This document shows positions 12,854 through 45,026 of a DNA stretch of 64,000 bases, piece after piece. The notes beneath the pieces were generated by a model. That model saw nothing but the letters and a program-made list of their open reading frames with translations. It was not told the DNA's origin and ran no database searches. The position numbers and the translations under genes were made by a program. Each line of letters starts with the position of its first letter. Within the stretch, counting starts at the first letter, position 1. Source of the DNA: an uncultured Flavobacteriaceae bacterium (GTDB taxonomy: Bacteria; Bacteroidota; Bacteroidia; Flavobacteriales; Flavobacteriaceae); the NCBI GenBank assembly GCA_947494715.1, contig CANLWG010000001.1, positions 248,001 to 312,000 on the forward strand, read 5' to 3'.

Positions 12854-12863
12854 ACAGGATCCT

Positions 12864-25432: not shown

Positions 25433-25448
25433 ACTAAATCGGTTTAGT
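25433..25448 (+). promoter_or_regulatory. LacI-family operator O1 (ACTAAATCGGTTTAGT)
   Basis: A 16-bp near-perfect palindrome with the central CG typical of LacI/GalR-family operators (one mismatched pair). It overlaps the predicted transcription start of the regulator and ends 4 bases before its TTG start codon. It is the exact reverse complement of the second operator at 26485-26500, which supports both. Binding would block transcription of the regulator itself. Confidence 0.8.
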
Positions 25449-25452
25449 TAAA

Positions 25453-26472
25453 TTGAAGAAAATTTTTTTAAAGGATATTGCAGAGGAGTTGGGCCTGTCC
25501 AAGACGGCCGTTTCCTTGGTGCTGAACAATAGGGGAGACGAGAACAAAATAAGCAAGGAGACCCAAAAAAGAATTTTGGATTTTGCCCAAAAAAATAATT
25601 ACCGGCCCAACCAGATGGCCAGGGGGCTGAGTTTGGGAAAGAGCGAGACCATTGGTTTAATTGTGCCCAACATTTCCGATATCTTTTACGCCAAGATAGC
25701 CCATCATATCGAGCTCAGAGCAAAGAAGTTGGGGTACAATGTTGTATTCAGTAGTTCCAATGAAGATGCCGAGATGGAAAAGGAATTGATATATTCCATG
25801 TTGAACAGACAAGTTGATGGATTGATTATCGCTTCCACCCAAAAGAATAAAGATGAAATCTTAAAATTAAGGAAGGCCAATTTCCCATTTGTATTGATTG
25901 ATAGACATTATCCGGATATTAAAACCAATTATGTAATCGTTGATAATTTTGGTGGTGCAAAAAACATAACCCGACATTTATTAAAGAATGGGAGAAGGAA
26001 CATAGGCCTGGTCAGTATAAGAAGTGAATTGGACGCCGTGCTACAAAGGCGCTTGGGCTATGAAACAGCTCTGATAGAAGAGGGTCTTGAAATCAATACC
26101 CAAACAATAAAGGAATTGGACCCGTTTGCATATAAATCCGAAATGAAATATGCGATCAAGGATATGGTCAGCGGATCAAAAGGTGTAGATGCCATTGTGT
26201 TTACTACCCATTACCTGGCCGCTTCTGGGCTTAGGGAACTCAAACTATTGGATGTTAAGGTGCCAAGCGGGGTGGCAATAATCAGTTTTGATGAACTAGG
26301 TGCCTTTGATTTGGTAGACCCACCGATTAGTACCAGTAAGCAGCCCGTTGATGATATTGGAAATCTCGCTGTTGAGATTTTGGTCAACGATATTGAAAAG
26401 AAGAATGTAAAGATTAAAAGCCAAAGGACATTACAAACTCAACTATTGATTCGAAAATCTTGTGGGGTTTAA
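25453..26472 (+). CDS. LacI/GalR-family transcriptional regulator of the mannoside operon
   Basis: 339 residues, starting at a TTG codon; no ATG is available without losing the helix-turn-helix. The DNA-binding domain begins at once (FLKDIAEELGLSKTAVSLVLNN, residues 4-25) with the hinge region NYRPNQMARGLSLGKS. The periplasmic-binding-protein-like effector domain follows (ETIGLIVPNISDIFYAKIAHHIE, later VIVDNFGGAKNITRHLL and AIISFDELGAFDLVDPPIST). It should bind a sugar or sugar-acid effector and repress or activate the operon that starts 46 bases after its stop. Identical inverted 16-bp sites lie in front of this gene and in front of the GH38 gene, so autoregulation and control of the operon are both likely. 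Confidence 0.92.
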   Translation: MKKIFLKDIAEELGLSKTAVSLVLNNRGDENKISKETQKRILDFAQKNNYRPNQMARGLSLGKSETIGLIVPNISDIFYAKIAHHIELRAKKLGYNVVFSSSNEDAEMEKELIYSMLNRQVDGLIIASTQKNKDEILKLRKANFPFVLIDRHYPDIKTNYVIVDNFGGAKNITRHLLKNGRRNIGLVSIRSELDAVLQRRLGYETALIEEGLEINTQTIKELDPFAYKSEMKYAIKDMVSGSKGVDAIVFTTHYLAASGLRELKLLDVKVPSGVAIISFDELGAFDLVDPPISTSKQPVDDIGNLAVEILVNDIEKKNVKIKSQRTLQTQLLIRKSCGV

Positions 26473-26484
26473 ATTTATTAAAAA

Positions 26485-26500
26485 ACTAAACCGATTTAGT
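26485..26500 (+). promoter_or_regulatory. LacI-family operator O2 (ACTAAACCGATTTAGT)
   Basis: Exact reverse complement of the operator at 25433-25448, located between the regulator stop and the ATG of the GH38-like gene (18 bases before the ATG). The two sites are 1052 bp apart and flank the regulator gene, an arrangement that would allow a DNA loop held by a tetrameric or paired-dimer repressor. Confidence 0.85.
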
Positions 26501-26518
26501 TAAATAAAAACTGTTCTC

Positions 26519-29500
26519 ATGAAACATCAAAGTCGTCATCTAGTTCTTAGATTAGCGTGCCACCTATGCTTTTCTCTTTTTTTAATTGGCACTGCATTTG
26601 CCAATCCGAATGAACCCGCCCTTGGGAAGTCCGAAGATATGCTTTTTCACGAAGGCAACGGAAACGGACATATCCAAGAGTTGAACGTAAACCACCGTTT
26701 GTACAACATTGGGAAAAATGACATCGAAGGTTATAAGGAAATGCTTTCTGGGTCGGAGTTCTTTCTATATCCCTCACTCCGAGAGGATATTAATGTATCA
26801 ATGATTGCTAGGGCTACCACAGGCAAAATGGGCTTTGAGTTTCTTACCGGGGAGGTGCCGGAAAATTATGTATCGGACAAGGTTACTTTTCTAATGTTAA
26901 GTGATATAGACCTTAACCTGAGGGAATCCTTTGATATTCATGTGAATGACCAACCGCTATTGACCTTTAACTCCAACGAAGATGGAACACTTTCAGTTAC
27001 CGACAATCCCGGTAACGGAGCCGCCGAATATATTTTGATAAGAAGGGATGGTAATGGCGATGGTATAGGTGTATTCCGCTTAACGGTTCCAACATCCTAC
27101 ATTCAAAAAGGGAAAAGCGCTAAAATCAAGTTCAATGGCCATAAAAAGAACTCCAATTGTTGGGTCATGATTTTTAAGGCCACCGATGCGGTCGAACGAA
27201 TTAAGAAATCCGTCTTCACGGAAGCCGCTTTTGTAATCAAACAAAGAAATGATGTACTGTATGTAGACGCGCCCGCACATTTTTCAGGAAAATCGGTTTA
27301 TATCATCAGTGATGGTAAAAAAAGTAAACGTAAAACCTTCAAGGCACAAGGCGAGCTTTCCAAAACATCCTTTGCCTTGGAAGCTCCCAAAAATAGCTTC
27401 TCGATTGTTTATGATGATACGGAAATTACATTGGAATTCGAAAATGGTGACGGTACGATTTCCAAAACGGATATCAGGGGAAAGTACCTCTACCATCACA
27501 GAACCAACTACAATAACGGTTGGTTTGCTTCTTTGACCAAATTATACAAACCCGAGTTTTTTGAAACCTATGACGATTTTTTTGACAAAAAATATGAGGA
27601 CGGATTGGTTTCCATCATGAATTCAAGCCATCAGGACATTGCGTGGGTAGACCGTCCTGAAGTCTGTATCATTCTTCGGGACACCTTACTATTAAAACCT
27701 GTACTAAAAGATGCCTTTATTCGTGAGGATTATGGTTTCGATATTGAAGATGGATTAATGTTACGGGAATACTTGGAAAGACATCCGGATTCCAAAGAAC
27801 AATTGACTACCCTGTTGAACAAGAAGTTAATATCCGTGGGTGCAACCTATAACTGCCCGTACGAGGATATGTATGATGCCGAGGATCAGGTAAGGCAGTT
27901 ATACTTGGGTAAAAAATGGGTAAAAAAGACTTTTGGAGGATATGACTCTAAGGTGTATTGGAATGTGGATGTACCCGGTAAATCACTGCAAACGCCACAG
28001 ATTCTAAAAAAAGCTGGGGTAGATTATATGGTGATCAGTAGGCATGCCAAGGGAATGTTCCATTGGGCAAGTCCGGATGGCAGTTCGGTATTTACCTACT
28101 CTCCGGGCCATTACGGTAATGATTTGCTCTATCTGTCCCGAGACCTGAACAGTAAAATGAAGTATGGCGCAGAGCAGGTGTTGTATTGGGAAAAGAATTT
28201 TAAGGGAAGTGAAATTCAAACACCGCTGCTGTCAAGTCAGGATATGCTTCCCGCAATCGATTATTCGGGATTTATAGATTCATGGAATTCTTTTGATTCC
28301 TTGGAAGATGAAAAGGGAACTGAAAAAGATGTGTTCCTTCCTAAAATGGAACTGATGACTATGGATGAGTTTATGCCCTTGGCAGAAAAAAAGGCAACCC
28401 AAGTGGATACCATTATGGGGGAGCGTCCCAATGTTTGGGTGTACATTCATGGACCTGGACATCATGATGCGCTTACGGCCAGTAGGGAGGCTTCGAAATT
28501 GCTTCCGGCGGCAGAAAAGTTCCACTCCATAGCTAATATTATCGACCCTAAAAAAATGCGGTATCCGTTTGAGGAATTCGATGAAGCTTGGCAAGCCAAA
28601 ATTTATCCCGACCATGGTTGGGGTGGTCACGATGGTGACATCACCGATAATTTGTTTAAGGAGAACCTTGTAAAATCGAGGACCATGGGTCAAACCCTTT
28701 TGAACAAGGGTGTTGATTTCATTTCCAGTCGAATTAAAAAGAACGAAAAACTAGGTATTCCCATAGTATTGTTCAATAGTCTTTCATGGGAAAGAACCGA
28801 TCCGGTAACTACATCCGTTAATTTTGCCAAAGGGAACATCAAAAATGTGACTGTCCTTACTTCGGACAAGAAAAAAATCCCAACACAAACCAGTAATGCG
28901 GAATACCACGATGATGGAAGCCTTAAAAGTGCCAAAATTACCTTTATTGCCAAGAACATACCCTCCATTGGATATGTTACTTATTATCTTGCGGATGACA
29001 GGATTACGATTGCGGATGGGAAAATCGCAAATACCTCTTCTTATGAAAACCCTTTTTACAAGGTTGGTTTTGATAAAGGAGGCATAGCACAAGTGTACGA
29101 CAAGGAGCTTAAAAAGGAGCTTTTTACTTCTGATAGTTTTAAGGTAGGAGATGTTTTCACTTTGCAATCCGTAGGAAATGGTGCAGGTGAATTCGGAGAT
29201 GTACAACAGCCCAGTATGGTAGATTTTGACAAGGTGAGTTTGCACGGTCCGGAATGGGAAATCTTGGAGAATGGCCCTGTCTTCACCAAATACAGATTGG
29301 AACAAAAAATCCTACATGCCATTGTGAGGCAGGACATTACCCTGTATCATGATTTAAAGCGCATTTATTTTGATGTTACGCTGCGCAATTGGTCGGGTGA
29401 GTTATATCGCGAGTTTAGAACCGCTTTTCCTGTAAACATGGACAATGCAGAAATTGCCCATGAAGTTCCTTTTGGAAGGGTACGTGTGGGCAAGGATGAA

Positions 29501-30127
29501 ATTAAGACCGCTGGTGAGCGCTATACCCCACTTTGTAAGGATGTACACCCAAGGGCCATAATAGATTGGATTTCGGCTACAGATAATGAGATTTCGGTTA
29601 CCCTTAGTTCTTCGGTCGCAGCTGCAGATTGGATTGACCCCACGGAACATAGTTCGGGTAAGGCCGTCTTACAAAATGTATTGTTGGCAAGTAGGACCTC
29701 ATGTCACTGGGAGGGCAATGAATATTCCCAGGCCGGCAATCACAATTTTCATAATGTGCTGACATCGAATAAGGCCGGAAGTATCCAGGGCCAAAAAATT
29801 GCCAAACAAAAAAACGAACCTTTGCATGTAGTTTTACATCCGGATACTTCAACAAAAGCGTTCTTACCGGAATCTTTAAGCTTCTTTGCTATAGATACTG
29901 AAGATGTAATGATATCGACCATAAAAAAGGCGGAAGATTCCGAAGATATCATTGCGCGAATGTATAATGTAAAAGATAGTGATGAAAAGGTAAATGTTTC
30001 CTCCTATTTCGATATCAAATCATATAAGCAGACCAATATTATAGAGGAAGACCCTAAACCGGTATCTCCTGAATTACAGCTTGGTAAATATGCCATTGAG
30101 ACCTTTAGTTTAGAAGTGAATGAATAG
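26519..30127 (+). CDS. Secreted GH38-family alpha-mannosidase-like glycoside hydrolase
   Basis: 1202 residues with a signal peptide ending near AFA|NP (residue 29). An N-terminal beta-rich region (about 30-330) precedes the GH38 catalytic domain. Visible zinc and catalytic residues: H371 and D373 in NSSHQDIAW, the predicted nucleophile D484 in YWNVDVPGKS, and the H648-H649-D650 motif in GPGHHDALTAS. The later FNSLSWERTDPV is the usual start of the GH38 C-terminal domains. The N-terminal extension and the W-N-V-D-V-P-G form of the nucleophile motif differ from lysosomal/Golgi-type enzymes (WxIDPFGxS), so it belongs to a divergent branch and could act on another alpha-linked sugar. It is the first gene of the operon behind operator O2, followed after 43 bases by the RraA gene. 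Confidence 0.82.
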   Translation: MKHQSRHLVLRLACHLCFSLFLIGTAFANPNEPALGKSEDMLFHEGNGNGHIQELNVNHRLYNIGKNDIEGYKEMLSGSEFFLYPSLREDINVSMIARATTGKMGFEFLTGEVPENYVSDKVTFLMLSDIDLNLRESFDIHVNDQPLLTFNSNEDGTLSVTDNPGNGAAEYILIRRDGNGDGIGVFRLTVPTSYIQKGKSAKIKFNGHKKNSNCWVMIFKATDAVERIKKSVFTEAAFVIKQRNDVLYVDAPAHFSGKSVYIISDGKKSKRKTFKAQGELSKTSFALEAPKNSFSIVYDDTEITLEFENGDGTISKTDIRGKYLYHHRTNYNNGWFASLTKLYKPEFFETYDDFFDKKYEDGLVSIMNSSHQDIAWVDRPEVCIILRDTLLLKPVLKDAFIREDYGFDIEDGLMLREYLERHPDSKEQLTTLLNKKLISVGATYNCPYEDMYDAEDQVRQLYLGKKWVKKTFGGYDSKVYWNVDVPGKSLQTPQILKKAGVDYMVISRHAKGMFHWASPDGSSVFTYSPGHYGNDLLYLSRDLNSKMKYGAEQVLYWEKNFKGSEIQTPLLSSQDMLPAIDYSGFIDSWNSFDSLEDEKGTEKDVFLPKMELMTMDEFMPLAEKKATQVDTIMGERPNVWVYIHGPGHHDALTASREASKLLPAAEKFHSIANIIDPKKMRYPFEEFDEAWQAKIYPDHGWGGHDGDITDNLFKENLVKSRTMGQTLLNKGVDFISSRIKKNEKLGIPIVLFNSLSWERTDPVTTSVNFAKGNIKNVTVLTSDKKKIPTQTSNAEYHDDGSLKSAKITFIAKNIPSIGYVTYYLADDRITIADGKIANTSSYENPFYKVGFDKGGIAQVYDKELKKELFTSDSFKVGDVFTLQSVGNGAGEFGDVQQPSMVDFDKVSLHGPEWEILENGPVFTKYRLEQKILHAIVRQDITLYHDLKRIYFDVTLRNWSGELYREFRTAFPVNMDNAEIAHEVPFGRVRVGKDEIKTAGERYTPLCKDVHPRAIIDWISATDNEISVTLSSSVAAADWIDPTEHSSGKAVLQNVLLASRTSCHWEGNEYSQAGNHNFHNVLTSNKAGSIQGQKIAKQKNEPLHVVLHPDTSTKAFLPESLSFFAIDTEDVMISTIKKAEDSEDIIARMYNVKDSDEKVNVSSYFDIKSYKQTNIIEEDPKPVSPELQLGKYAIETFSLEVNE

Positions 30128-30170
30128 TTTTAAGGAAACTCGACGTGATTTAAACGATTAAAACTTGTGA

Positions 30171-30866
30171 ATGAAGACATTTTGGAAAAATGATAGTGAA
30201 CTGTACGAAATAGCGAAAAAGGAGCTTTTTGTAGCACTTGTAGGCGATGTTTTGGATAAAATGGGGTATTTGCACCAGTTTCTTCTGCCCCATATAAAAC
30301 CTTTGAATAATGATTTTGTGCTCATAGGAAGGGCAATGCCTGTTCTTGAGGCGGATGTATTTGAGGAAGTCTCCGATAGTACCCATAACCCTATAATGAA
30401 AAAGCAGTTCGGAATCATGTTCGAAGCGCTGGACAGCTTAAGGAAAGGTGAGGTTTACATCTGTTCCGGTTCTTCACCAGAGTATGCCCTTTGGGGTGGA
30501 TTAATGAGTACAAGGGCTATTAAATTGGGTGGTGCAGGTGCTGTTGTGAACGGATGGTCCAGGGATACTAAAGAAATCTTGAACCTGGGTTTCCCAACAT
30601 TTTCCTATGGGGGTTATGCCCAAGATCAAGGGCCTAGGGGAAAGGTAATCGATTATAGGGTCCCTATAGAGATTGGCGGTATACGAATCCGTCCCGGAGA
30701 TATGGTTTATGGGGATTTGGATGGGGTGTTGATCGTACCCAAAGAAGCTGTAAATGAAGCTTTTACCGGGGCCATTGAAAAAGCTCGTGGCGAACAATTG
30801 GTGAAAAAGGCCTTGCAAGACGGTATGAGTACGGTTGATGCCTTCAATAAGTTCGGAATTATGTAG
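30171..30866 (+). CDS. RraA-fold lyase (HMG/CHA aldolase-like)
   Basis: 231 residues, no signal peptide, hence cytoplasmic. The RraA signature is present: WGGLMSTRAIKLGGAGAVVNGWSRD, with the G-G-L phosphate/carboxylate loop and the R-D pair that holds the divalent metal and pyruvate enolate, then VIDYRVPIEIGGIRIRPGDMVYGDLDGVLIVP. Characterised relatives cleave 4-hydroxy-4-methyl-2-oxoglutarate or decarboxylate oxaloacetate; related proteins occur in sugar-acid clusters. Here it could cleave a 2-keto-3-deoxy acid into pyruvate and an aldehyde, which would complete a route from the UxuA-like dehydratase in the same operon; that link is inference. It is an intact cytoplasmic counterpart of the secreted-type pseudogene at 1540-2489. 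Confidence 0.85.
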   Translation: MKTFWKNDSELYEIAKKELFVALVGDVLDKMGYLHQFLLPHIKPLNNDFVLIGRAMPVLEADVFEEVSDSTHNPIMKKQFGIMFEALDSLRKGEVYICSGSSPEYALWGGLMSTRAIKLGGAGAVVNGWSRDTKEILNLGFPTFSYGGYAQDQGPRGKVIDYRVPIEIGGIRIRPGDMVYGDLDGVLIVPKEAVNEAFTGAIEKARGEQLVKKALQDGMSTVDAFNKFGIM

Positions 30867-30908
30867 ACCATGAGCCGTATTGACCAACCATGTAATTTAG
30901 GATAATTT

Positions 30909-32369
30909 ATGAAGGCCAAAAATTCGAACTACTTATTGGGAATCAGTTTTGTTTCCACTATTGGAGGTTTTCTCTTTGGATATGATACAGCCATCATTTC
31001 GGGCTGCAATGCCTTTTTAGAGCAACATTTTGAATTGTCCGCGGCCGAGTTGGGTTGGGTAGTTTCATCGGCTTTGCTAGGTACTATTTTTGGTTGTGTT
31101 GTTGCAGGATTCATTACTGATAAACTCGGCAGGAAAAAAGCACTCATTTTAGCCGCAGTTTGTCTAACGCTTTCGGCATTGGGTTCTATGTTGCCTCCCC
31201 AGTTTTTGGGTGATTTAACAAATGCTCACTGGCTTACTTCCGATGTTGATATGGCCTTTAACCTGTTGATTGTGGTTCGTATAATTGGCGGAATCGGCGT
31301 AGGCGTTACTTCGGTTGTGGCACCTATCTATATATCCGAACTTTCTTTGCCACAGAATAGGGGGAAAATGGTATCGCTGTACCAACTCTCTATCACCTTG
31401 GGAATTCTATTGGCGTTTCTAATCGATTGGATTGTATTAAACCGAGCAGGAGACTTGGCGGGTGTTATCTCTAGCGAAGCTTCCGGATTTTGGAATTGGT
31501 TGTTCGTGGAGGAGCTCTGGCGGGGCATGTTCGGTACGGAAATACCTATTGCGCTCATATTCCTGTTTTTACTTTTTATTGTCCCAGAAACACCACGTTG
31601 GCTAATTACTAAAGGTCGACATGAAGAAGCGATGGATACTATGGTGAAAATAAACGGCTTGGAATATGCCCAATCTGCCATGAGTGAAATAAAGGAAATG
31701 ACCAAGATCGAAACCGGCGGTTTCAAGGAATTGTTGCAACCTTTTTTACGCATTCCTCTTTTGATAGGCATCTTACTTCCTATGTTTTCACATTTAAGTG
31801 GTATTGCGGCCATCATGTATTTTGCCCCTAATATTATCAATGAATCGGTTCAAAGTGTGGAAAGTGCCTTTTTAGGTGCTGTTTTGGTGGGTGTTGTAAA
31901 CAGTGCGTTCACTTTTGTGGCCATTTTGAATATTGAAAAATTTGGTAGAAGAAAACTATTGTTGATCGGGGTTATTGGGGCATTCTTATCCTTAACGGGA
32001 GTGGGTGTTTTATTCGCAATGGGCTCGCAATATGTCATTGTTCCCTTACTCATGTACGTGGCCAGCTTCGCTTTTTCCTTTGGTCCCATTGTTTGGGTCA
32101 TTATCAGCGAAATCTTCCCGACCAAGGTACGTGGATTTGCAGTTGCTCTTGGTAGTTTTGCCCTTATGGTAACCGGTTTTATCATTACATTGACCAATCC
32201 CATTCTTATCAAAAACATTATGCCATCGGGCACCTTTTTTGTTTACGCCGCATTAACACTTCCAGCCATATGGTTCATTTGGAAGTATGTCCCAGAGACC
32301 AAGGGAAAAACATTGGAGGAAATTGAAAAATATTGGCGTGCACGCAACCAATCTAAAATTGATGTATAA
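30909..32369 (+). CDS. MFS sugar porter 1
   Basis: 486 residues, twelve predicted membrane helices. Sugar-porter signatures: GGFLFGYDTAIISGCN in helix 1, DKLGRKKAL after helix 2, RIIGGIGVGVTSVVAPIYISE, PETPRWL between the halves, and PETKGKTLEEIEKYW at the C-terminus. It is a proton- or sodium-linked inner membrane importer for a monosaccharide, probably the product of the GH38/GH92 enzymes. A second member of the family lies at 38975 in the same operon. It is longer than the second porter because of extended loops after helices 3 and 6. Confidence 0.92.
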   Translation: MKAKNSNYLLGISFVSTIGGFLFGYDTAIISGCNAFLEQHFELSAAELGWVVSSALLGTIFGCVVAGFITDKLGRKKALILAAVCLTLSALGSMLPPQFLGDLTNAHWLTSDVDMAFNLLIVVRIIGGIGVGVTSVVAPIYISELSLPQNRGKMVSLYQLSITLGILLAFLIDWIVLNRAGDLAGVISSEASGFWNWLFVEELWRGMFGTEIPIALIFLFLLFIVPETPRWLITKGRHEEAMDTMVKINGLEYAQSAMSEIKEMTKIETGGFKELLQPFLRIPLLIGILLPMFSHLSGIAAIMYFAPNIINESVQSVESAFLGAVLVGVVNSAFTFVAILNIEKFGRRKLLLIGVIGAFLSLTGVGVLFAMGSQYVIVPLLMYVASFAFSFGPIVWVIISEIFPTKVRGFAVALGSFALMVTGFIITLTNPILIKNIMPSGTFFVYAALTLPAIWFIWKYVPETKGKTLEEIEKYWRARNQSKIDV

Positions 32370-32386
32370 AATCACTACCAAGACCT

Positions 32387-32824
32387 ATGATAGAGTCCTA
32401 TAAAATAGAAGAAAACGGATATCACCCTTTTTTAATACGAGATGGCTGGCAGGTGGCACAACTGAACTATATGCCTGAACAAGAGATTGATAATATCAAA
32501 AGATTGGACGTGCACCATTTAACAGATGAGGTTTTTATACTGTTGAAAGGAAATGCCGTATTGATTGGTGCGACTATTAACGCAGGAGAGGTAACTTTTA
32601 AGTTAATATTGATGAAACCTAATGTTACTTATAATATTCCACAAGGCACATGGCATAATATAGCGATGACAGAAGGGTGCGAAACTATCATTGTAGAAAA
32701 ATCAAATACCCATGTTTCTGATTTTGAGTATTTTGAACTTAGCGAAGTATACGTCCAAGAACTGAAGAATAAGGTCAATGCACTGTTTGATTCAGCAAAG
32801 AATTTGAGAAATGAAAAATATTGA
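32387..32824 (+). CDS. Single-domain cupin protein
   Basis: 145 residues, cytoplasmic. The small beta-barrel pattern includes LDVHHLTDEVFILLKGNAVLIG, with the two His and the Glu of cupin motif 1 (H-H-x-T-D-E), and YNIPQGTWHNIAM, with the His of motif 2. A metal site is therefore probably intact. Cupins of this size act as sugar isomerases, epimerases, mutarotase-like proteins or sensors; no more precise function can be read. The gene overlaps the following SDR start by 14 bases, so the two are translationally coupled. Confidence 0.75.
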   Translation: MIESYKIEENGYHPFLIRDGWQVAQLNYMPEQEIDNIKRLDVHHLTDEVFILLKGNAVLIGATINAGEVTFKLILMKPNVTYNIPQGTWHNIAMTEGCETIIVEKSNTHVSDFEYFELSEVYVQELKNKVNALFDSAKNLRNEKY

Positions 32825-33611
32825 TTTAAGAGGCAAAAAGGCCTTGGTCACGGGTGGTAGTCAAGGTATAGGCGCTGAAATCTGTATGCAATTGGCTCAT
32901 TGTGGTGCCGATGTTTTTATCAATTATAACAGGAACAGGGAGAAGGCCGAGGCATTGACTAAAGAAATCAAGGAGAAACATGGGGTCAACGTTACCTGTG
33001 GTAGAGCAAATGTGTCCAATACAAAAGAAGTAGAGGCTATGTTCCTTCAAATGGATAATGATATTGGCAACATCGATATTTTGGTGAATAACGCCGGTTG
33101 CGAAACTGTGGTTCACGTTTTGGATATGGAAGAAAAGGATTGGGATAGGGTAGTGGATGTCAATTTAAAAGGTCCGTTTTTATGTGCCCAACAAGCGGGG
33201 CGAAGAATGGAAAATAACGGAGGCGGTGTCATTATCAACATTTCCTCCATTCATGATGTGGTTCCAAGAAAAGGATTAATACATTATTGTTCCGCCAAGG
33301 CAGGATTAAAAATGTTCTCCAAATGCCTTTCATTGGAGTTGGCCGATAAAAGCATTAGGGTTGTCTCTATTGCACCTGGGGCTGTTGAAACGAATATGAA
33401 CCGCGAGGAAATCGCCAAATTTGGTAAAGACAAGTTCGAAAACTGGATACCTCAAGGAAGAATTGGAGAGGTCTCGGATGTAGCCAATACCGTGGTTTTT
33501 ATGGCCAGTGATTTGGCAGATTATATCAATGGAGCCGATATTTATGTGGATGGCGCTTACATGAACCATACAATTCAGTACGATCCTAGACCTAAACGAA
33601 AAAATAAATAA
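32811..33611 (+). CDS. Short-chain dehydrogenase/reductase 1
   Basis: 266 residues. Rossmann fold with TGGSQGIG (14-21), NNAG (93-96) and the catalytic S145/S146, Y159-x-x-x-K163. The C-terminal SDVANTVVFMASDLADYINGADIYVDGAYM is typical of classical SDRs of the glucose dehydrogenase / 3-oxoacyl-ACP reductase type. In this operon it would suit NAD(P)-dependent oxidation of the imported sugar to a lactone for the lactonase at 35556, or redox chemistry on a sugar acid. A paralogue lies at 40356. Its start overlaps the cupin stop. Confidence 0.9.
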   Translation: MKNIDLRGKKALVTGGSQGIGAEICMQLAHCGADVFINYNRNREKAEALTKEIKEKHGVNVTCGRANVSNTKEVEAMFLQMDNDIGNIDILVNNAGCETVVHVLDMEEKDWDRVVDVNLKGPFLCAQQAGRRMENNGGGVIINISSIHDVVPRKGLIHYCSAKAGLKMFSKCLSLELADKSIRVVSIAPGAVETNMNREEIAKFGKDKFENWIPQGRIGEVSDVANTVVFMASDLADYINGADIYVDGAYMNHTIQYDPRPKRKNK

Positions 33612-33623
33612 TTACTTTCGGCC

Positions 33624-34775: not shown

Positions 34776-34776
34776 T

Positions 34777-35544: not shown

Positions 35545-35555
35545 AAGAAACCGCT

Positions 35556-36602: not shown

Positions 36603-36678
36603 AACTGGGTAGTGGGACGGTTTTTGCAAATTTTTGAAATAGAAACAAAGATGTCGTCCAACGGCATATTCGTATAAA

Positions 36679-37872: not shown

Positions 37873-38930
37873 TGAAACTAGGATTCGGTCTATACAGGCA
37901 TATGCTCAATACGGAGCATTATCAGTTCGCAAAGCAATGTGGTGCCACCCATTTGGTGATTCATTTGGTAGACTATTTTGGACATAATAAAGAGAATTCG
38001 GATCAACCGATTGGTGGTAAAGAAGGTTGGGGAAGGGCCGGAAATCCAAATGAAATTTGGTCGTTGGAAGAGTTGATGGCCATCAAAAAAGAAATCAACG
38101 ACCACGGGTTGGAATTGGAGGCTATAGAAAATTTTGATCCCGCCCATTGGCACGATATTTTGTTGGACGGCCCTCAAAAAGAGCTGCAAATGGCAAATCT
38201 AAAACAGTTGATTCGCAATGTTGGCAAGGCAGGTATACCCACTTTTGGATATAATTTTTCTATGGCGGGAGTAGCTGCAAGAACCCAAGGTCCGTACGCA
38301 AGGGGAGGAGCCATTTCCGTAGGGATGGAGGGTGCGGACAACACCCCAATACCCAATGGCATGGTCTGGAATATGGTGTATGATGAAAATGCACCGGAAG
38401 GTACCGTACCCAAAATTGACCATGATGAACTTTGGAACCGTTTGCATTATTTCTTGGAAGGGATTTTACCTGTTGCAGAGGAAGCTGGGGTTAAAATGGC
38501 AGCGCATCCTGACGACCCACCGATGCCTTACGTTCGGGATACGCCAAGGCTGGTCTATCAACCTGATATGTATCAAAAATTGATCGATATGAATCCGAGT
38601 CCATCGAACCATCTGGAATTCTGCCTGGGCTCCATTGCTGAAATGACCGAGGGCAATGTGTATGACGCGACCGACGCCTATAGTAAGCAAGATAAAATCA
38701 GTTATATCCATTTCAGAAATATCGTAGGCAAAGTACCTCATTATAAGGAGGTTTTCGTTGACGAGGGCGATATCGATATGTTCAAAATTTTAAAGATCCT
38801 AAAGAAAAACAATTTTGATGGGGTTTTAATTCCGGACCATACACCACAAATGACCTGTGATGCACCATGGTATGCCGGTATGGCCTATGCTATGGGCTAT
38901 ATGAAGGCAGCCATTTCATTATTGGAATAA
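37872..38930 (+). CDS. UxuA-family mannonate dehydratase-like protein (GTG start)
   Basis: 352 residues starting at a GTG that shares one base with the preceding stop. TIM-barrel pattern of UxuA: GFGLYRHMLNTEHYQFAKQ at the start, NLKQLIRNVGKAGIPTFGYNFS, LEGILPVAEEAGVKMAAHPDDPP (metal His), LEFCLGSIAEM (metal Cys), ISYIHFRNIVGK (metal His) and LIPDHTPQM (metal Asp). All four ligand positions of the Fe/Mn site look present. Mannonate dehydratase converts D-mannonate to 2-keto-3-deoxygluconate, which suits an alpha-mannosidase operon with a sugar dehydrogenase and lactonase. The middle region differs from E. coli and Bacillus UxuA, so a related aldonate could be the real substrate. Confidence 0.85.
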   Translation: MKLGFGLYRHMLNTEHYQFAKQCGATHLVIHLVDYFGHNKENSDQPIGGKEGWGRAGNPNEIWSLEELMAIKKEINDHGLELEAIENFDPAHWHDILLDGPQKELQMANLKQLIRNVGKAGIPTFGYNFSMAGVAARTQGPYARGGAISVGMEGADNTPIPNGMVWNMVYDENAPEGTVPKIDHDELWNRLHYFLEGILPVAEEAGVKMAAHPDDPPMPYVRDTPRLVYQPDMYQKLIDMNPSPSNHLEFCLGSIAEMTEGNVYDATDAYSKQDKISYIHFRNIVGKVPHYKEVFVDEGDIDMFKILKILKKNNFDGVLIPDHTPQMTCDAPWYAGMAYAMGYMKAAISLLE

Positions 38931-38974
38931 GCAATTTGTGAAAACCAATACATAATCAAAAACAAATTCCAATT

Positions 38975-40354
38975 ATGAAAAACAATGTTACTTTTTTAGC
39001 TGTAATCGCCGCGCTTGGAGGCTTTTTATTCGGATATGATACGGCTATTATTTCCGGGACCATCGGTTTTGTAAAAACACAATTTGAACTCAATACGGTT
39101 TTAGAAGGCTGGTATGTAAGCTCAGCGCTTGTCGGCACCATTTTAGGGGTTTCCGTTGCAGGTATTCTTAGCGACAAATTCGGCCGAAAGAACATATTGA
39201 TTATGTCGGGGATGTTTTTCGCACTTTCGGCAATCGGCTGTGCAGTATCGGGTTCTTTCATTAGCTTGGTAATCTATAGAATTCTTGGTGGAATAGGTGT
39301 AGGTATTGCTTCTATGTTGTCACCCTTATATATCTCCGAGATAGCCCCTGCGAAAAAAAGAGGAAGATTGGTTGCTTTATATCAACTGGCTATAACCTTT
39401 GGTATTCTAGTGGCCTATTTTGCTAATGCATATTTGCTTTCACTTTCGACGTCGGAGGGTTTAACGGCCACCTCAGGAATGACCCATAAAATATTTGTCG
39501 CTGAGGTTTGGCGAGCAATGCTAGGTAGCGAAACCATCCCCGCTACCCTTTTCCTTTTATTACTTTTCTCCATACCCAAAAGCCCGCGTTGGCTTACCAT
39601 GAAAGGGAAAAGGGAACAGGCCAAAAGCATTTTATTGCGGTTCGTGACGAAAGAAGAGGCCGATATCGAAATACAAAATGTTGAAGACGTGCTGTCCAAG
39701 GAGTCGGGCGGGATCAAAGCTGTTTTTTCAGGTCCCTTTAAACTGGCGATGATCATTGGAATTTCATTGGCACTCCTAAGTCAAGTAAGTGGAATCAATG
39801 CCATTATATACTACGGACCAAAAATCCTGGAAGAGGGTGGTCTGCAGTTGGGTGAGGCCCTAGGCGGCCAAGTGGTAATTGGTATCGTTAATGTCTTGTT
39901 CACTTTTGTGGCCCTTTGGAAGATTGATGATTTAGGGCGAAAACCTTTACTCACGTACGGCATAATAGGAATCATGATTTCCTTATTGGTGGTTGGATTA
40001 TTGTTCTATTTCGAGGTAAACAATACGTACCTATTAATGACATTCATACTTACTTTCATTGCTTGTTTTGCTTTCTCTTTTGGTCCGGTAGTATGGGTGC
40101 TCCTTTCAGAAATATATCCGTTGAAAGTTCGTGGTGCGGCAATGTCCATGGCTACTATGGCGGTATGGGTGGGCACTACTTTTGTTGGGCAGATGACGCC
40201 CTGGTTTTTGGAAAACCTGAAACCATATGGTACGTTTTGGTTTTTTGCGGCCTGCATGATTCCAGCAGTTTACTTGGCCGTAAAGGTTCTTCCAGAAACC
40301 AAGGGAAAGACCTTGGAGGAAATAGAGAATTACTGGTTAACAAAAAAGGAATAG
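38975..40354 (+). CDS. MFS sugar porter 2
   Basis: 459 residues, twelve membrane helices. Sugar-porter signatures: GGFLFGYDTAIISGTI, DKFGRKNILI, RILGGIGVGIASMLSPLYISE, IPKSPRWLTMKGKREQA, SGINAIIYYGPKIL and PETKGKTLEEIENYW. It shares most motifs with the porter at 30909 but has shorter loops and closer similarity to xylose/glucose-type symporters. It starts 44 bases after the UxuA-like gene and heads a second porter-SDR-CoA-transferase block, parallel to the first. Expected role: inner membrane import of a second sugar or sugar acid. Confidence 0.92.
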   Translation: MKNNVTFLAVIAALGGFLFGYDTAIISGTIGFVKTQFELNTVLEGWYVSSALVGTILGVSVAGILSDKFGRKNILIMSGMFFALSAIGCAVSGSFISLVIYRILGGIGVGIASMLSPLYISEIAPAKKRGRLVALYQLAITFGILVAYFANAYLLSLSTSEGLTATSGMTHKIFVAEVWRAMLGSETIPATLFLLLLFSIPKSPRWLTMKGKREQAKSILLRFVTKEEADIEIQNVEDVLSKESGGIKAVFSGPFKLAMIIGISLALLSQVSGINAIIYYGPKILEEGGLQLGEALGGQVVIGIVNVLFTFVALWKIDDLGRKPLLTYGIIGIMISLLVVGLLFYFEVNNTYLLMTFILTFIACFAFSFGPVVWVLLSEIYPLKVRGAAMSMATMAVWVGTTFVGQMTPWFLENLKPYGTFWFFAACMIPAVYLAVKVLPETKGKTLEEIENYWLTKKE

Positions 40355-40355
40355 C

Positions 40356-41144
40356 ATGAATCGTCTTAAAAATCAGGTAGCTATTGTAACCGGGGCAGCT
40401 AATGGTATTGGATTGGCCATAAGCAGGGCTTTTAGTTCTGAAGGGGCAACGGTGGTCATGTGTGATATCAACGGTGATAAATGTGATGAGGAAGCAAGGA
40501 AATTGAGTATTAATGATGCTGTGATCAGAAGCCATTTTTGTGATGTAGGCGTTACCGAAGACGTACAAACAGTTGTTCAGAAGACCATAGCGGAATTTGA
40601 AAGAATCGATATTTTGGTAAACAATGCGGCAGTGGCCATATCGGGGGATATTCGGGAGATGCCCGAGTCGGACTGGGACAAGGTCATGAATATCAACTTA
40701 AAGAGTGTTTTTAGAGGGATAAAAACAGTATTGCCCCATATGCTGCAACAAAAATCGGGAAGTGTTATCACCTTATCATCGGCACAGGCTTTTCGAAGTT
40801 GGGATGATTGGACGGCCTATGCCGCGGCGAAAGGTGCCATCCTTTCCATGAGCAATCAACTGGCCGGACAATTTGGACACGAAAATGTACGCTTTAATAC
40901 CATTTCCCCGGGAGCGATACTTACCCCTTTGAACGAAAAAAGAATTGTGCAGGAAGGGCAGGGTTTTTTGGAAGGTAGTATCGGCCAGGCTGCTATGCTA
41001 CGAATGGGAGAGGCTGAAGAAGTTGCCATGACCGCTGTTTTTCTAGCGTCCAATGAGGCAAAATTTATTACAGGAGAAGATATTAAAGTAGATGGGGGAT
41101 TGACCAGTCTTCCAAGATATATAGATAAAACAAAAAACAAGTAG
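40356..41144 (+). CDS. Short-chain dehydrogenase/reductase 2
   Basis: 262 residues. TGAANGIG (12-19), NNAA (89-92), S141/S142 and Y155-x-x-x-K159 give an intact classical SDR. The NAD-preference Asp is present (VVMCDINGDKC, residue 37), pointing to NAD rather than NADP. The C-terminal GEAEEVAMTAVFLASNEAKFITGEDIKVDGGLTSL is standard. The ATG lies one base after the stop of porter 2 and the stop is two bases before the CoA-transferase ATG. It probably oxidises a hydroxyl of the sugar or acid handled by this block. It is not a close copy of the SDR at 32811. Confidence 0.9.
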   Translation: MNRLKNQVAIVTGAANGIGLAISRAFSSEGATVVMCDINGDKCDEEARKLSINDAVIRSHFCDVGVTEDVQTVVQKTIAEFERIDILVNNAAVAISGDIREMPESDWDKVMNINLKSVFRGIKTVLPHMLQQKSGSVITLSSAQAFRSWDDWTAYAAAKGAILSMSNQLAGQFGHENVRFNTISPGAILTPLNEKRIVQEGQGFLEGSIGQAAMLRMGEAEEVAMTAVFLASNEAKFITGEDIKVDGGLTSLPRYIDKTKNK

Positions 41145-41146
41145 TA

Positions 41147-42352
41147 ATGCAACAAGCATTGGAAGGTGTAAAAGTATTGGACTTTTCACAATTGTTACAG
41201 GGCCCTTTTGCTACTCAGATGATGGGTGATTTGGGTGCGGATGTCATTAAGATTGAAAGAAACGGTAGTGGCGATATCTATCGGGGCATGACCTTTTTTA
41301 ATCAATGGATTGCAGGTGACGAATCGCCTTGCTTTATGGCCTGGAATAGAAACAAACGTTCATTGGCGATAGATATAAAATCTCCTCAAGGCAAAGAGAT
41401 CATTTACAAACTGGCCAAAGAAGCAGATGTACTTGTAGAGAATTTTCGCCCAGGGGTGATGGAGCGGTTGGGTTATGGCTATGAGGATTTGAAAAAGATT
41501 AATCCACGTATCATTTATTGTTCCGCCAGTGGTTGGGGAGATGATGGGCCTTATCTGACTCGCCCAGGGCAGGACTTGTTGGTACAGAGCGTTAGCGGTG
41601 CCATTATGACAAGCGGCAAAAACTCCGATGGGCCTGTGGCCATAGGTACGGCCCTGTGCGACCAAGTAAACGGACTCAACTCCGTCTATGCTATCCTTGC
41701 CGCGTTGTATTATCGTGAAAGGACAGGTAAAGGCCAGCAAATAAAGACCAATCTATTGTCCTCGGCCATTGCCTTTCAGATGCAGGACTATTTTACCATT
41801 CAGAATTTAGGACAGACTTTTGAGCGCCCGGAATCCAAAATAGGACACCCGGGCAATGGAGCCCCTTTCGGAATGTATGAAACTAGTGATGGGTACCTCA
41901 CCATTGCCATGAGCCCTTGGCCTAAATTGGTAGAAGCCTTGGGAGACCAATCATTAATGCAATACAATGACCCACAGGTACTTTTTGATGATCGGGATAA
42001 AATCCATGGTACTATAGAAGCTATTACGATTACCAAAACTACGGACGAATGGTTAGAGATTATGCTGGGACTGGATCTTTGGGTAGCTAAAGTAAATGAC
42101 CAAAAGGATGTAGAAAAAGACCCTCAGGTGATTCATAATAATACATTTATAGACGTGGAGCACCCCAAAGCAGGGAAAGTAAAGGTGACCAATATCCCCT
42201 TCACCATGAGCGAGACACCCGGGCATATCAAGCGTTCATCTCCGCTTATCGGAGAACATGGCACAGAAATTCTAATGGAAATAGGGTATAGCGAAGGAGA
42301 TATTGAAAATTTGGTTTCAGAAAATGTTATCAGCATTGAAAAGATTACATGA
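41147..42352 (+). CDS. CaiB/BaiF-family CoA-transferase 2
   Basis: 401 residues with the same signatures as the enzyme at 36679: LDFSQLLQGPFATQMMGDLG, GADVIKIE, NRNKRSLAIDIKSPQG, VENFRPGVMERLGYGY and the likely nucleophile D172 in TALCDQVNGLNS, followed by RERTGKGQQIKTNLL. Between GADVIKIE and the NRNK box it has a distinct insert (RGMTFFNQWIAGDESPCF), so the acid-binding pocket probably differs from that of the first enzyme. It may activate a second carboxylate or take CoA from a different donor. The gene is packed between the SDR (2 bases) and GH92 (1 base) genes. Confidence 0.9.
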   Translation: MQQALEGVKVLDFSQLLQGPFATQMMGDLGADVIKIERNGSGDIYRGMTFFNQWIAGDESPCFMAWNRNKRSLAIDIKSPQGKEIIYKLAKEADVLVENFRPGVMERLGYGYEDLKKINPRIIYCSASGWGDDGPYLTRPGQDLLVQSVSGAIMTSGKNSDGPVAIGTALCDQVNGLNSVYAILAALYYRERTGKGQQIKTNLLSSAIAFQMQDYFTIQNLGQTFERPESKIGHPGNGAPFGMYETSDGYLTIAMSPWPKLVEALGDQSLMQYNDPQVLFDDRDKIHGTIEAITITKTTDEWLEIMLGLDLWVAKVNDQKDVEKDPQVIHNNTFIDVEHPKAGKVKVTNIPFTMSETPGHIKRSSPLIGEHGTEILMEIGYSEGDIENLVSENVISIEKIT

Positions 42353-42353
42353 C

Positions 42354-45026
42354 ATGAGGTGTTGTTTCAGGAAAAACTATATCGTTCTCGCCTGTCTTTT
42401 GGTTTGTTTTGGTTGTAAACAGCAGTCGGAGGAAGTTGTCCAATCCAAATCTATAAATCCGCTGCCTAGGAAGGCGTATTTGGGCTATGTGGATACCCGC
42501 GTAGGGACGGCTCCAAGTATTGCCGATATAACCGTTACCGAAGTTGAGGAGCCACTTGGTTATGTGTCTCCCATTGTGGGGAACCCCTCTGCTTTGACCC
42601 ATTGGACTCCCCAGACCGCAAAATGGACCGATCGTGTAATAACCGTTCCAGTACCGTATTGGTACGATCAAAAAAAGATTCAAGGTTTTCGGGGTACGCG
42701 ATATCCCAATGGCGCCGTGGTTGGCGATTGGGGACCTATGTCCCTAATGCCTCTTACGGGGGAAATTAAAATTGATGCGGAAGAACGTGCTTCAAGGTTT
42801 AGCCATGATACAGAGATTGCCAAACCACACTATTACTCGGTAAAACTGGACGATTACGATATCAAAGCTGAATTTACTGCGGCTTCCAAGACCGGATTTT
42901 TTCAGTTCACTTTTCCAGAATCCAAGTCATCATCAATAGTATTCGATGGAGTGTATGTCCCCGGGCATTATAAGGTGATTCCCGAGAAAAATGAAATTGA
43001 AGGTTACACGGTTATCGCAGGTCATTTTAAGAATCATTTTGTGGCCAAGTTTGATAAAAAATTTGAAGCCTTCAACGTGGATATGTTGCCTAATGTGGTA
43101 GATGCCGATTTGGTTCCGGACGGATTTAAAGCGGCCTACTACAACAACGATAAATTGGAAGGAGAGCCGGATGTATTCGTAACCTATTCCAAATTGAATT
43201 ACAATTGGTTGAAAGCCCCTGCCGAAGGTGTTAAGGACGATTTTTTTTCGGCAGTGTATACGGGTACCCTGGTAGCAAGACATTCCGGGGAACATACCTT
43301 TGAGTTAACGACCAAGGATGGTACACGAATGTATATCAATGACGAAATGGTCATTGACCAATGGATGTATAGGGCAACAGGTACCAACATCCATAAGATG
43401 AACCTCATAAAAGGGCAGAAATACAATATACGCATCGAATACTACGACGGTTCCAGCACTACCGAGATGCATCTAAGATGTGCGGAGCCCGTACGACCAG
43501 ACCCCGATCTTGGTCCCAAGATGGCACTTAAAGGAGCTGATGGGAATGCAGTTTATGTAACCTTTGCCACAAAAGATCAAGAAAAAGTAAAGATGAAAGT
43601 GGGTACTTCCCTGATTGATTTGGAACAAGCTCGGGCAAATATGGAAGAAGAATTTCCAGATTTCGATTTTAACGAAGCCGTAGAAAAGAGTTCCGATGTT
43701 TGGGAGAAAGAATTAAATAGGACTCAAGTGGAAGGTTCCGATAATGATAAAGCAATTTTCTATACAGCCTTGACCAAATGTTTCGTAAATCCTCGCAACT
43801 TAAACGAAGGAGGTAGATATTTTAGCCCATTCGATTTTCAGGTTCACGAAGGTGAAATGTACACCGACTTATCTATTTGGGATACTTTCCGCTCCTTGCA
43901 TCCGTTATGGGTAATTTTAAAACCTCAGGAAACTACCGATATCATTAACGGTATGTTGAACACCTATAAACAGGGAGGTTGGCTGCCTAAATGGCCCAAC
44001 CCCTGGTACCGAAGTATTATGATGGGAACTCACGCCGATGCCGTTATTACGGATGCCTATATAAAGGGCATTAGAGGTTTTGATACTGAGTTGGCTTTTG
44101 AGGCCATGTTAAAAAACGCTACTGAAAAAGGAAATCGCGGTTTTTCAGGTCGAGTTGGGATTGAGTATTTCAATGAAATTGGCTATGTACCTACTGATAT
44201 TTTTGGATTTTATGGCGAACCTGTAGCAAGAACCCTGGAGTTTTCTTATGATGATTACTGTATTGCCCAAATGGCAAAAGCTCTGGCTAAAGATGATTAC
44301 TATGATGACTTTATGCAACGCTCAAAGCGATACAATAATGTTCTGGATAGAGAAACAGGCTTGGTTCGCGGGAAGAAACTAAATGGGGAGTGGCTTCCTC
44401 CTTTTGATAAAAGTATTAGTGTTTGGGCACAAGGAACCGATCATGATACGGAAATATACTATAAGAATCATACCTTGTTAGTGCCGCATGATATCCCCGG
44501 ATTGGCCGACTTTATGGGTGGAGAAGAAAAGCTGGTGGACTACCTAGATGAGTTTTTTGAAAAGGATATGTATTACGTAGGAGATGAATTCTCTATGCAT
44601 GCCCCTTATATGTACAATAGCTTGGGCACTCCCTGGAAAACACAAAAAGTAGTACGGGACATGTTGGCCAAATACTTCTTTAATGACGTAGGCGGATTGC
44701 CCGGTAATGATGATTGCGGACAGGTATCCTCTTGGTACGTTTTTGGTGCTATGGGTTTCTACCCGGCAAATCCGGGAGATCCGGTATATCAACTTTGTAG
44801 CCCTGTATTTAGCAAGGTGCAAATTAGTGTTGGAAAAGAAAAGGTTTTTACTATAATCGCTAACAACAACTCCAAAGAGAACACCTACATTCAATCGGCT
44901 ACTTTAAATGGGGAGCCTTATAATTCAAGTCAATTACATCACAATGCAATTATTGACGGGGCTGAATTGGTTTTTGAAATGGGACCTGAACCAAATACAA
45001 ATTGGGGTTTGGACCAAGCCAAATAA
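42354..45026 (+). CDS. GH92-family alpha-mannosidase-like lipoprotein with inserted PA14 domain
   Basis: 890 residues from the ATG at 42354, which follows the previous stop by one base and gives a lipoprotein signal (LACLLVCFGC). The N-terminal GH92 sandwich (YVDTRVGTAPSIADITVTEV) lacks the usual glycine-rich GTGGHGHTFPGA form. A PA14 domain (about 251-380, GFKAAYYNN to EMHLRC) is inserted into or after this domain. The alpha/alpha-barrel contains DLSIWDTFRSLHPLW, the likely general acid E745 in GDEFSMHAPYMYN, and GNDDCGQVSSWYVFGAMGFYP with D787. GH92 enzymes are calcium-dependent exo-alpha-mannosidases acting with inversion. It is anchored at the envelope and probably works with the GH38 enzyme at the head of the operon. 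It is the last gene of the run. Confidence 0.88.
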   Translation: MRCCFRKNYIVLACLLVCFGCKQQSEEVVQSKSINPLPRKAYLGYVDTRVGTAPSIADITVTEVEEPLGYVSPIVGNPSALTHWTPQTAKWTDRVITVPVPYWYDQKKIQGFRGTRYPNGAVVGDWGPMSLMPLTGEIKIDAEERASRFSHDTEIAKPHYYSVKLDDYDIKAEFTAASKTGFFQFTFPESKSSSIVFDGVYVPGHYKVIPEKNEIEGYTVIAGHFKNHFVAKFDKKFEAFNVDMLPNVVDADLVPDGFKAAYYNNDKLEGEPDVFVTYSKLNYNWLKAPAEGVKDDFFSAVYTGTLVARHSGEHTFELTTKDGTRMYINDEMVIDQWMYRATGTNIHKMNLIKGQKYNIRIEYYDGSSTTEMHLRCAEPVRPDPDLGPKMALKGADGNAVYVTFATKDQEKVKMKVGTSLIDLEQARANMEEEFPDFDFNEAVEKSSDVWEKELNRTQVEGSDNDKAIFYTALTKCFVNPRNLNEGGRYFSPFDFQVHEGEMYTDLSIWDTFRSLHPLWVILKPQETTDIINGMLNTYKQGGWLPKWPNPWYRSIMMGTHADAVITDAYIKGIRGFDTELAFEAMLKNATEKGNRGFSGRVGIEYFNEIGYVPTDIFGFYGEPVARTLEFSYDDYCIAQMAKALAKDDYYDDFMQRSKRYNNVLDRETGLVRGKKLNGEWLPPFDKSISVWAQGTDHDTEIYYKNHTLLVPHDIPGLADFMGGEEKLVDYLDEFFEKDMYYVGDEFSMHAPYMYNSLGTPWKTQKVVRDMLAKYFFNDVGGLPGNDDCGQVSSWYVFGAMGFYPANPGDPVYQLCSPVFSKVQISVGKEKVFTIIANNNSKENTYIQSATLNGEPYNSSQLHHNAIIDGAELVFEMGPEPNTNWGLDQAK

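Follow-up and report, generated by a model that had tools for sequence, protein, structure and literature searches.

The window analysed here, a stretch of 64,000 nucleotides from the genome of an uncultured Flavobacteriaceae bacterium, carries an alpha-mannoside operon in which a solute-binding-protein homologue (SBP), a crotonase and two family III coenzyme A (CoA) transferases of the CaiB type are encoded among mannosidase-like, sugar porter and dehydrogenase genes. The operon and its regulator occupy positions 25453-45026 of the window, on contig C1 of the 5.97 Mb source genome (G000; C plus a number denotes a contig and L plus a number a compared gene neighbourhood). Our tentative reading, held with somewhat less than even confidence, is that the SBP-crotonase-CaiB1 cassette, together with an appended MFS2-SDR2-CaiB2 part, would be a CoA-dependent aldonate dehydratase joined to this operon. 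CaiB would move CoA onto the aldonate, the crotonase would remove water across C2-C3, the C2 proton being acidified by the thioester, and the resulting enol would become a 2-keto-3-deoxyacyl-CoA; CaiB would then transfer the CoA to a further aldonate, in the manner of CaiB and CaiD acting on carnitine, and the SBP would hold the acid for CaiB. We infer every substrate, the direction of the reactions and the CoA cycle itself. More cautiously, we raise the possibility that the cassette would belong to a widespread class of sugar-acid dehydratases that work through CoA and consist of a cytosolic SBP-fold protein, CaiB and either a crotonase or a MaoC hydratase according to the configuration at C3, with the CoA recycled. 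The genes in question are the following.

33624-34775, + strand: probably cytosolic ABC-type SBP homologue, hub of the cassette (Pfam SBP_bac_1, 45.6 bits, cut-off 26)
34768-35544, + strand: crotonase (Pfam ECH; both glutamates present)
36679-37872, + strand: CaiB1, family III CoA-transferase (Pfam; D175)
38975-40354, + strand: major facilitator superfamily (MFS) sugar porter 2, layout-D part (TIGR00879, 387 bits, cut-off 238)
40356-41144, + strand: short-chain dehydrogenase/reductase 2 (SDR2), layout-D part (Pfam; NF005559, 220 bits, cut-off 215)
41147-42352, + strand: CaiB2, family III CoA-transferase, layout-D part (Pfam)

A conserved and separable cassette

The SBP is the gene product that an earlier note, made from the sequence of the window alone, had left unnamed. 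Its predicted structure (mean pLDDT 95.2) matched structure 5iai best, with TM scores of 0.86/0.83, and also matched other sugar binders including SmoF and a trehalose/maltose binder. Since the first strand of the model begins at residue 5, at most 11 residues precede the core in 94 of 107 homologues even when the longest possible frame is used (11 of the others have longer mechanical frames and 2 did not match the motif used), and no ABC permease or ATPase is found in the run by open reading frame (ORF) list or Pfam, the SBP is very likely cytosolic and devoid of an export signal. Some other loci encode an ABC transporter with its own, separate SBP. We considered the arginine aligned with SmoF R345 as a sign of acid binding and dropped it, the same residue being present in the trehalose/maltose binder. 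In L056 one frame (12854-15133) fuses a second SBP-like protein to a Gfo/Idh dehydrogenase, a single case in which a sequencing error is possible.

The residues that we take to be catalytic are retained in the CoA enzymes throughout the alignments, from which rows with stops or below 80% of the median length were omitted. CaiB D175, aligned with the aspartate of solved CoA-transferases, is present in 169/169 rows, and crotonase E118 and E138, placed by alignment to 2pbp, in 50/50; in the MaoC hydratases found at other loci, D38 is kept in 58/58 rows and H43 in 53/58. No CoA_transf_3 genes other than those of CaiB1 and CaiB2 were found in the genome. CaiB1 falls below the NCBIfam cut-off for L-carnitine CoA-transferase (129.5 bits against 413), the models that the CaiB proteins match best are those of succinate-hydroxymethylglutarate and related CoA-transferases, and CaiB2 matches the benzylsuccinate CoA-transferase subunit structure 9fn0.

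Homologues of the SBP were found in 24 of 299 Flavobacteriaceae genomes (two as fragments), in 19 of 395 Bacteroidota genomes under a stricter limit, at 562 places in the GTDB collection, 80 of which were taken further, and in 145 plasmid records, mainly rhizobial. We compared 127 neighbourhoods, including some drawn from both of two collections; six duplicate pairs of this kind were removed for the counts of layout A below. CaiB lies near the SBP in 113 of the 127 loci, and in 61 of 71 SBP cluster representatives at 80% identity (clusters of 125 SBPs, two short or broken ones omitted; L037 counted by a remnant only). The two occur together in at least six phyla, namely Bacteroidota, Bacillota, Chloroflexota, Acidobacteriota, Pseudomonadota and Actinomycetota. 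Within 7 kb of the SBP, 48 of the 127 loci have a crotonase only, 47 a MaoC hydratase only, one has both and 31 have neither. The sugar and CoA genes that the earlier note had put in one operon co-occur widely in relatives, contrary to the lack of conserved co-occurrence that the note had named as a refutation. Four layouts were distinguished.

Layout A (mannoside), 30 de-duplicated loci picked for at least three of RraA, MFS1, SDR1 and UxuA: RraA, MFS1, cupin, SDR1, SBP, ECH, lactonase, CaiB1, UxuA-like
Layout B: RhaT or FucP, SBP, CaiB, CaiB, second SBP-like protein, Gfo/Idh, MaoC, often IclR
Layout C (L059, L060): SBP without CaiB; metallo-beta-lactamase-fold protein, SDRs, enolase-superfamily protein, RraA
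Layout D (L103, L104, L136, L140, L143): MFS2-SDR2-CaiB2-ECH-SBP, mostly then a lactonase

The operon of the window corresponds to layout A extended by MFS2-SDR2-CaiB2 of layout D; only two of the 30 layout-A loci, both from Ulvibacterium, have all three added genes, and among the matches listed the closest named relative by SBP protein is Ulvibacterium marinum (96% identity). Pseudomonadota loci of the crotonase class combine a DUF4432 epimerase, an SDR, CaiB, SBP, crotonase and a sugar ABC transporter, and many also have LacI or an FAH protein; those of the MaoC class combine IclR, L-rhamnose mutarotase, Gfo/Idh, MaoC, CaiB and SBP, with an amidohydrolase or MR_MLE protein in most. The mannose genes stand without SBP, ECH or CaiB in L180 and L181, the SBP is reduced to fragments in L061 and L064 (ECH is absent from both and CaiB also from L064), and CaiB is a 50-bit remnant in L037. 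The CoA genes are therefore a unit separable from the mannose genes, which occur without it, and found also beside genes for other sugars.

Three of the loci merit separate mention. The layout-C locus L060, on contig C9 of the source genome, holds at 9630-10796 a second SBP of the family without CaiB, adjoining a metallo-beta-lactamase-fold protein, SDRs, an enolase-superfamily protein and an RraA 74-75% identical to that of the window. L143 clusters with Bacteroidota loci by SBP tree and gene order although its record is titled Comamonas, and is possibly a mis-binned contig. At 17601-20243 the layout-B locus L098 of Mucilaginibacter runs on to a RuBisCO-like protein, which matches OiaX best (503 bits, under the cut-off of 700), and to a four-carbon acid sugar kinase-type protein; these may connect the locus with apiose-type sugars.

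Hydratase type, sugar markers and the proposed dehydration step

Crotonases handle (3S)- and MaoC hydratases (3R)-3-hydroxyacyl-CoA, and the C3 hydroxyl of D-mannonate, D-gluconate and D-galactonate is oriented as in the (3S) class, that of L-rhamnonate and L-fuconate as in the (3R) class. The type of hydratase tracks the sugar markers of the loci as would be expected from this configuration: the two agreed in 40 of 40 labelled clusters (p 8e-11, a statistic that ignores relatedness), a figure obtained after post hoc tightening of the marker thresholds and removal of UxuA as a marker. These comprised 27 crotonase clusters with GH38, GH92 or DUF4432 and 13 MaoC clusters with RhaM, RhaT, FucP or GH78; no marker was present in another 13 crotonase or MaoC clusters. 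With the original thresholds and 80% dereplication, 27 and 14 clusters were concordant, a D marker occurred in one MaoC cluster, an L marker in one crotonase cluster and both kinds in one cluster. The counts were 19, 2, 1 and 12 at 70% dereplication (p 2.0e-6) and 7, 1, 1 and 7 at 60% (p 0.010), with mixed and unmarked clusters omitted and relatedness ignored in both.

The neighbours of the cassette include SDRs and lactonases, and because TRAP carriers adjoin it in L100 and L153 its substrate is likely an acid. As to products, the crotonase-class locus L198 encodes an FAH protein homologous to 2-keto-3-deoxy-D-arabinonate dehydratase. To our knowledge, the established aldonate dehydratases (enolase superfamily, UxuA, IlvD/EDD) use metals or Fe-S clusters and not CoA. 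We found no UxuA, MR_MLE, IlvD or UxaA within 9.5 kb in 16 of 48 crotonase and 42 of 47 MaoC loci, UxuA being scored with the window protein as query. A missing dehydratase is illustrated in Flavobacterium. There, in L106, FucP (365 bits, cut-off 280) and L-fucose dehydrogenase (354, cut-off 300) are found above cut-off, and a fuconolactonase-like protein (270, cut-off 400) and a 2,4-didehydro-3-deoxy-L-rhamnonate-hydrolase-like protein (375, cut-off 500) under it, in genes divergent from SBP-CaiB-CaiB-SBP2-Gfo/Idh-MaoC. Genomes with this layout were collected by BLAST, and 13 of the 14 were searched: enolase-superfamily proteins above cut-off number two in 12 and three in one, the two in the one genome checked matching MenC and dipeptide epimerase/racemase models best, under cut-off, and IlvD is present as one copy in 10 genomes and as two in 3. 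Searches of the enolase superfamily and IlvD, with UxaA-type proteins left outside the genome-wide search, thus revealed no recognised fuconate dehydratase for these fucose loci, which therefore fit a CoA-dependent dehydratase.

Several observations weigh against the dehydratase reading, among them the post hoc tightening of the marker thresholds and the exceptions seen before it. When relatedness is allowed for, the independent switches of hydratase number only two (p 0.5 by sign test), and L213 holds a crotonase (1213-1983) and a MaoC hydratase (15719-16162) in one locus, which counters a simple either-or rule. The crotonase loci L044, L046 and L048 had been taken as a third switch, a candidate dropped since L213 has the same crotonase and aldehyde dehydrogenase beside MaoC. 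UxuA or MR_MLE is present as well in 32 of 48 crotonase loci, the layout of the window included, and in 5 of 47 MaoC loci, and the annotation of six proteobacterial rhamnose-type loci includes MR_MLE. In the layout of the window UxuA alone could perform the dehydration, and the cassette must therefore act there on another acid or an epimer, or carry a second flux. The corresponding missing-step argument for rhamnose (L219) was dropped, an MR_MLE gene lying about 2.8 kb beyond the fetched stretch; six other genomes examined alongside have several MR_MLE genes each. The SBP stands without CaiB in 14 of the 127 loci (some at contig ends), in two of the 113 CaiB loci (L037, L083) CaiB is reduced to a remnant or a piece at a contig end, and the run encodes neither a CoA ligase nor anything else that would prime the cycle.

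That UxuA or MR_MLE is retained in those 32 crotonase loci, and that the cassette is dispensable in L180 and L181, would be explained if the cassette were a CoA-dependent epimerase, in which CaiB and the hydratase invert C2 or C3 of an aldonate by reversible dehydration and rehydration and so feed a nearby UxuA or MR_MLE protein; carnitine racemisation and acyl-CoA epimerisation are indeed among the activities of the crotonase and CaiB families. We consider this rather unlikely, for no other aldonate dehydratase was seen within 9.5 kb in 42 of 47 MaoC and 16 of 48 crotonase loci, nor one recognised in most of the 13 Flavobacterium genomes. The CoA enzymes may also treat a different acid, such as a hydroxy-acid glycan substituent or a cleavage product of the sugar (for example lactate or glycerate), by ordinary catabolism of CoA esters, with the SBP as binder or sensor. 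The best scores of the CaiB proteins, the pairing of crotonase with aldehyde dehydrogenase in L213, L044, L046 and L048 and the pairing of the cassette with an AMP-binding protein and tetronate-type genes in L148 speak for such an account, which is nevertheless rather unlikely given that the cassette lies beside mannose, rhamnose and fucose genes alike, with a sugar-binding-protein fold and sugar importers, and that the ORF list of the run contains no thiolase, acyl-CoA dehydrogenase or CoA lyase.

Enzymes with the type II periplasmic-binding-protein fold exist, MqnA for example, and the SBP itself might act on a sugar or sugar acid whose product CaiB and the hydratase handle. It has 31 invariant columns, many polar or aromatic, across 27 sequences down to 31% identity; it persists without CaiB in L059, L060 and elsewhere; and an SBP-like protein is fused to a dehydrogenase in the L056 frame. 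However, its nearest structural matches are ordinary sugar-binding proteins, no feature of it points to catalysis, and the arginine aligned with SmoF R345 is common to the trehalose/maltose binder, which makes an enzymatic SBP improbable. That the CoA genes are chance passengers without a role in sugar catabolism, as mannose loci lacking them (L180, L181) or holding them in degraded form (L061, L064, L037) might suggest, is very improbable: the association of SBP and CaiB in 113 of 127 loci and at least six phyla contradicts it, and the CoA genes lie inside a tightly spaced operon under conserved operators.

Should the CoA-dependent dehydratase prove true, it would link the catabolism of sugar acids with chemistry of the fatty-acid type, assign a function to hundreds of proteins currently annotated as transporter parts, let the hydratase family predict sugar configuration and explain the CoA enzymes in mannoside, rhamnose and fucose loci. 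The logic is the known one of CaiB and CaiD on carnitine; its application to sugar acids would be new. Full-text searches of Creative Commons-licensed PubMed Central papers turned up no account of the cassette, which does not establish its absence from print, and the passages searched in PMC10444878 and PMC8857213 make no mention of CaiB.

The mannoside operon and its probable regulation

The remaining features of the operon are listed below; Pfam matches above cut-off (LacI, GH38, RraA, two Sugar_tr, two SDR, ECH, a 7-bladed lactonase, two CoA_transf_3, UxuA and GH92 with PA14) bear out the family calls of the earlier note.

25433-25448, no strand: predicted LacI operator 1, ACTAAATCGGTTTAGT
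25453-26472, + strand: LacI-family regulator (Pfam above cut-off)
26485-26500, no strand: predicted LacI operator 2, exact reverse complement of operator 1
26519-30127, + strand: GH38 alpha-mannosidase-like protein, 1202 amino acids (Pfam; N-terminal signal judged by eye)
30171-30866, + strand: RraA-like protein (Pfam; R131 and D132 present)
30909-32369, + strand: MFS sugar porter 1 (TIGR00879, 336 bits, cut-off 238)
32387-32824, + strand: cupin-like protein, a weak call (NCBIfam WbuC cupin, 23.8 bits, cut-off 42)
32811-33611, + strand: SDR1, proposed mannose 1-dehydrogenase (Pfam; NF005559, 228 bits, cut-off 215)
35556-36602, + strand: 7-bladed beta-propeller lactonase, PGL (Pfam)
37872-38930, + strand: UxuA-like protein, proposed mannonate dehydratase (Pfam, 191 bits, cut-off 23.7; ManD alignment)
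42354-45026, + strand: GH92 alpha-mannosidase-like protein with PA14 (Pfam; lipobox judged by eye)

The ORF list shows LacI and 14 following genes on one strand, as the earlier note had described, separated by 46, 43, 42, 17, -14, 12, -8, 11, 76, -1, 44, 1, 2 and 1 bases in order if GH92 starts at ATG 42354 (the list itself gives TTG 42303). The spacing had been put at mostly overlapping or 1-44 bases, which holds overall and fails for the 46 bases between LacI and GH38 and the 76 between lactonase and CaiB1. In agreement with that note, the run contains no SusCD, KDG (2-keto-3-deoxygluconate) kinase or KDPG aldolase by ORF list. The operators it had seen are two perfect 16-base sites on both sides of lacI, the only two exact matches in the whole 5.97 Mb genome. 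Counts alone are not significant, 28 of 100 shuffles also reaching at least two matches when up to 3 mismatches were allowed; with up to 2 mismatches the pattern occurs at 4 places genome-wide against 16 for its reversed control, and because it is the rarer of the two the argument is one of position and not of abundance. Of 14 LacI-bearing relative loci checked, 13 have at least one operator-like site no more than 400 bases from lacI, 10 of them with sites flanking the gene on both sides; L081 has none. The simplest reading of these sites is that LacI would regulate itself and the operon. Promoter and terminator scans gave chance level only.

Alpha-mannoside specificity, proposed earlier, is supported by context, since GH38 or GH92 homologues occur in 30 of the 30 layout-A loci, where importer, SDR, lactonase (27/30) and UxuA-like protein are linked with these alpha-mannosidases. 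The cupin-like protein recurs in 27 of 30; it has no Pfam match, and its sole NCBIfam cupin match is under cut-off. GH38 and GH92 would release mannose outside the cytoplasm, the MFS porters would import it, SDR1 and the lactonase would oxidise it to D-mannonate and the UxuA-like enzyme would dehydrate this to KDG. The UxuA-like protein aligns with ManD, and the window copy holds all four residues aligned with the metal site; H212, C251 and H280, in 39/39 aligned sequences, and D322, in 35/39, are presumably the ManD metal-site residues. It scores under the NCBIfam mannonate dehydratase cut-offs (153.9 against 191 and 125.5 against 199.55). Of the oxidative route put forward in the earlier note, the steps mannose > mannonolactone > mannonate > KDG from this operon are thus supported by context, by the lactonase linkage and the UxuA-like metal residues; its last step, cleavage of KDG to pyruvate and glyceraldehyde by RraA, did not stand in the same way. 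The RraA-like protein (Pfam, 108 bits, cut-off 24.5) reaches no NCBIfam model at its cut-off, keeps R131 in 39/39 and D132 in 38/39 aligned sequences, an Arg-Asp pair that we take to be the functional pair of the RraA/HMG-aldolase superfamily, and recurs in other loci of the genomes compared; that it cleaves KDG is possible. KDG kinase and KDPG aldolase homologues occur in 8 of the 127 loci (L061, L064, L075, L076, L079, L081, L082 and L094, with a Pfam check on L094 alone), and a phosphorylative end of the mannose route is therefore at least as likely as RraA cleavage. The genome holds three PF01081 aldolases, one of them, of KDPG type, together with a PfkB kinase, UxaC and UxuA on C4.

In several mannoside loci (L037 14051-15436, L180 3432-4823, L181 15774-17162) UxuA is followed by a protein of 462-463 residues whose N-terminus is Tat-like, that of L037 having no Pfam match. 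Directly before the window, L062 and L063 (G000:C1:212001-248500) hold further sugar-acid genes, which encode MR_MLE proteins, an SMP-30 lactonase, a GntP permease, an HpcH/HpaI aldolase, GH127 and a second divergent UxuA-like protein, near genes that by eye are putative SusC and SusD. Elsewhere in the window, 16733-24067 on the - strand encodes a 2444-residue repetitive protein, in a bacterial genome; its Pfam matches above cut-off are to a phage tail-fibre repeat and, at the C-terminus, to Peptidase_S74 (endosialidase chaperone).

Comparison with known systems

In Escherichia coli, L-carnitine is dehydrated by the CoA-transferase CaiB and the crotonase CaiD of the cai operon. Like that system, the window has the family III CoA-transferase aspartate, a crotonase with both glutamates and a transporter alongside, and CoA could be recycled between acid and product; unlike it, the window lacks CaiA and CaiC and has a cytosolic SBP and sugar genes instead, its CaiB1 is far under the carnitine CoA-transferase cut-off, and MaoC replaces the crotonase in half of the classed loci. 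Heteromeric family III CoA-transferases of the BbsEF type have a parallel in the paired CaiB genes of many MaoC loci and in the CaiB2-9fn0 match, whereas here both CaiB genes keep the aspartate (169/169) and CaiB1 and CaiB2 of the window are non-adjacent and come from two layouts. The SBP shares fold and family with SmoF, the trehalose/maltose binder and other ABC sugar-binding proteins; it differs in having no export signal, permease or ATPase and in its tie to CoA enzymes.

The non-phosphorylative L-fucose/L-rhamnose pathway proceeds through a dehydrogenase, a lactonase, an aldonate dehydratase and a 2,4-diketo hydrolase. The Flavobacterium loci resemble it in their dehydrogenase and FucP above cut-off and their lactonase-like and hydrolase-like genes, but hold SBP-CaiB-CaiB-SBP2-Gfo/Idh-MaoC in place of a recognised fuconate dehydratase. 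Oxidative (aldonate) hexose catabolism reaches KDG through the mannonate dehydratase UxuA; the operon of the window is similar in its importer, SDR, lactonase and UxuA-like genes, and in the kinase and aldolase homologues of the eight loci, and departs from it in a UxuA-like protein under the NCBIfam cut-offs and in the addition of RraA, a cupin and the CoA cassette.

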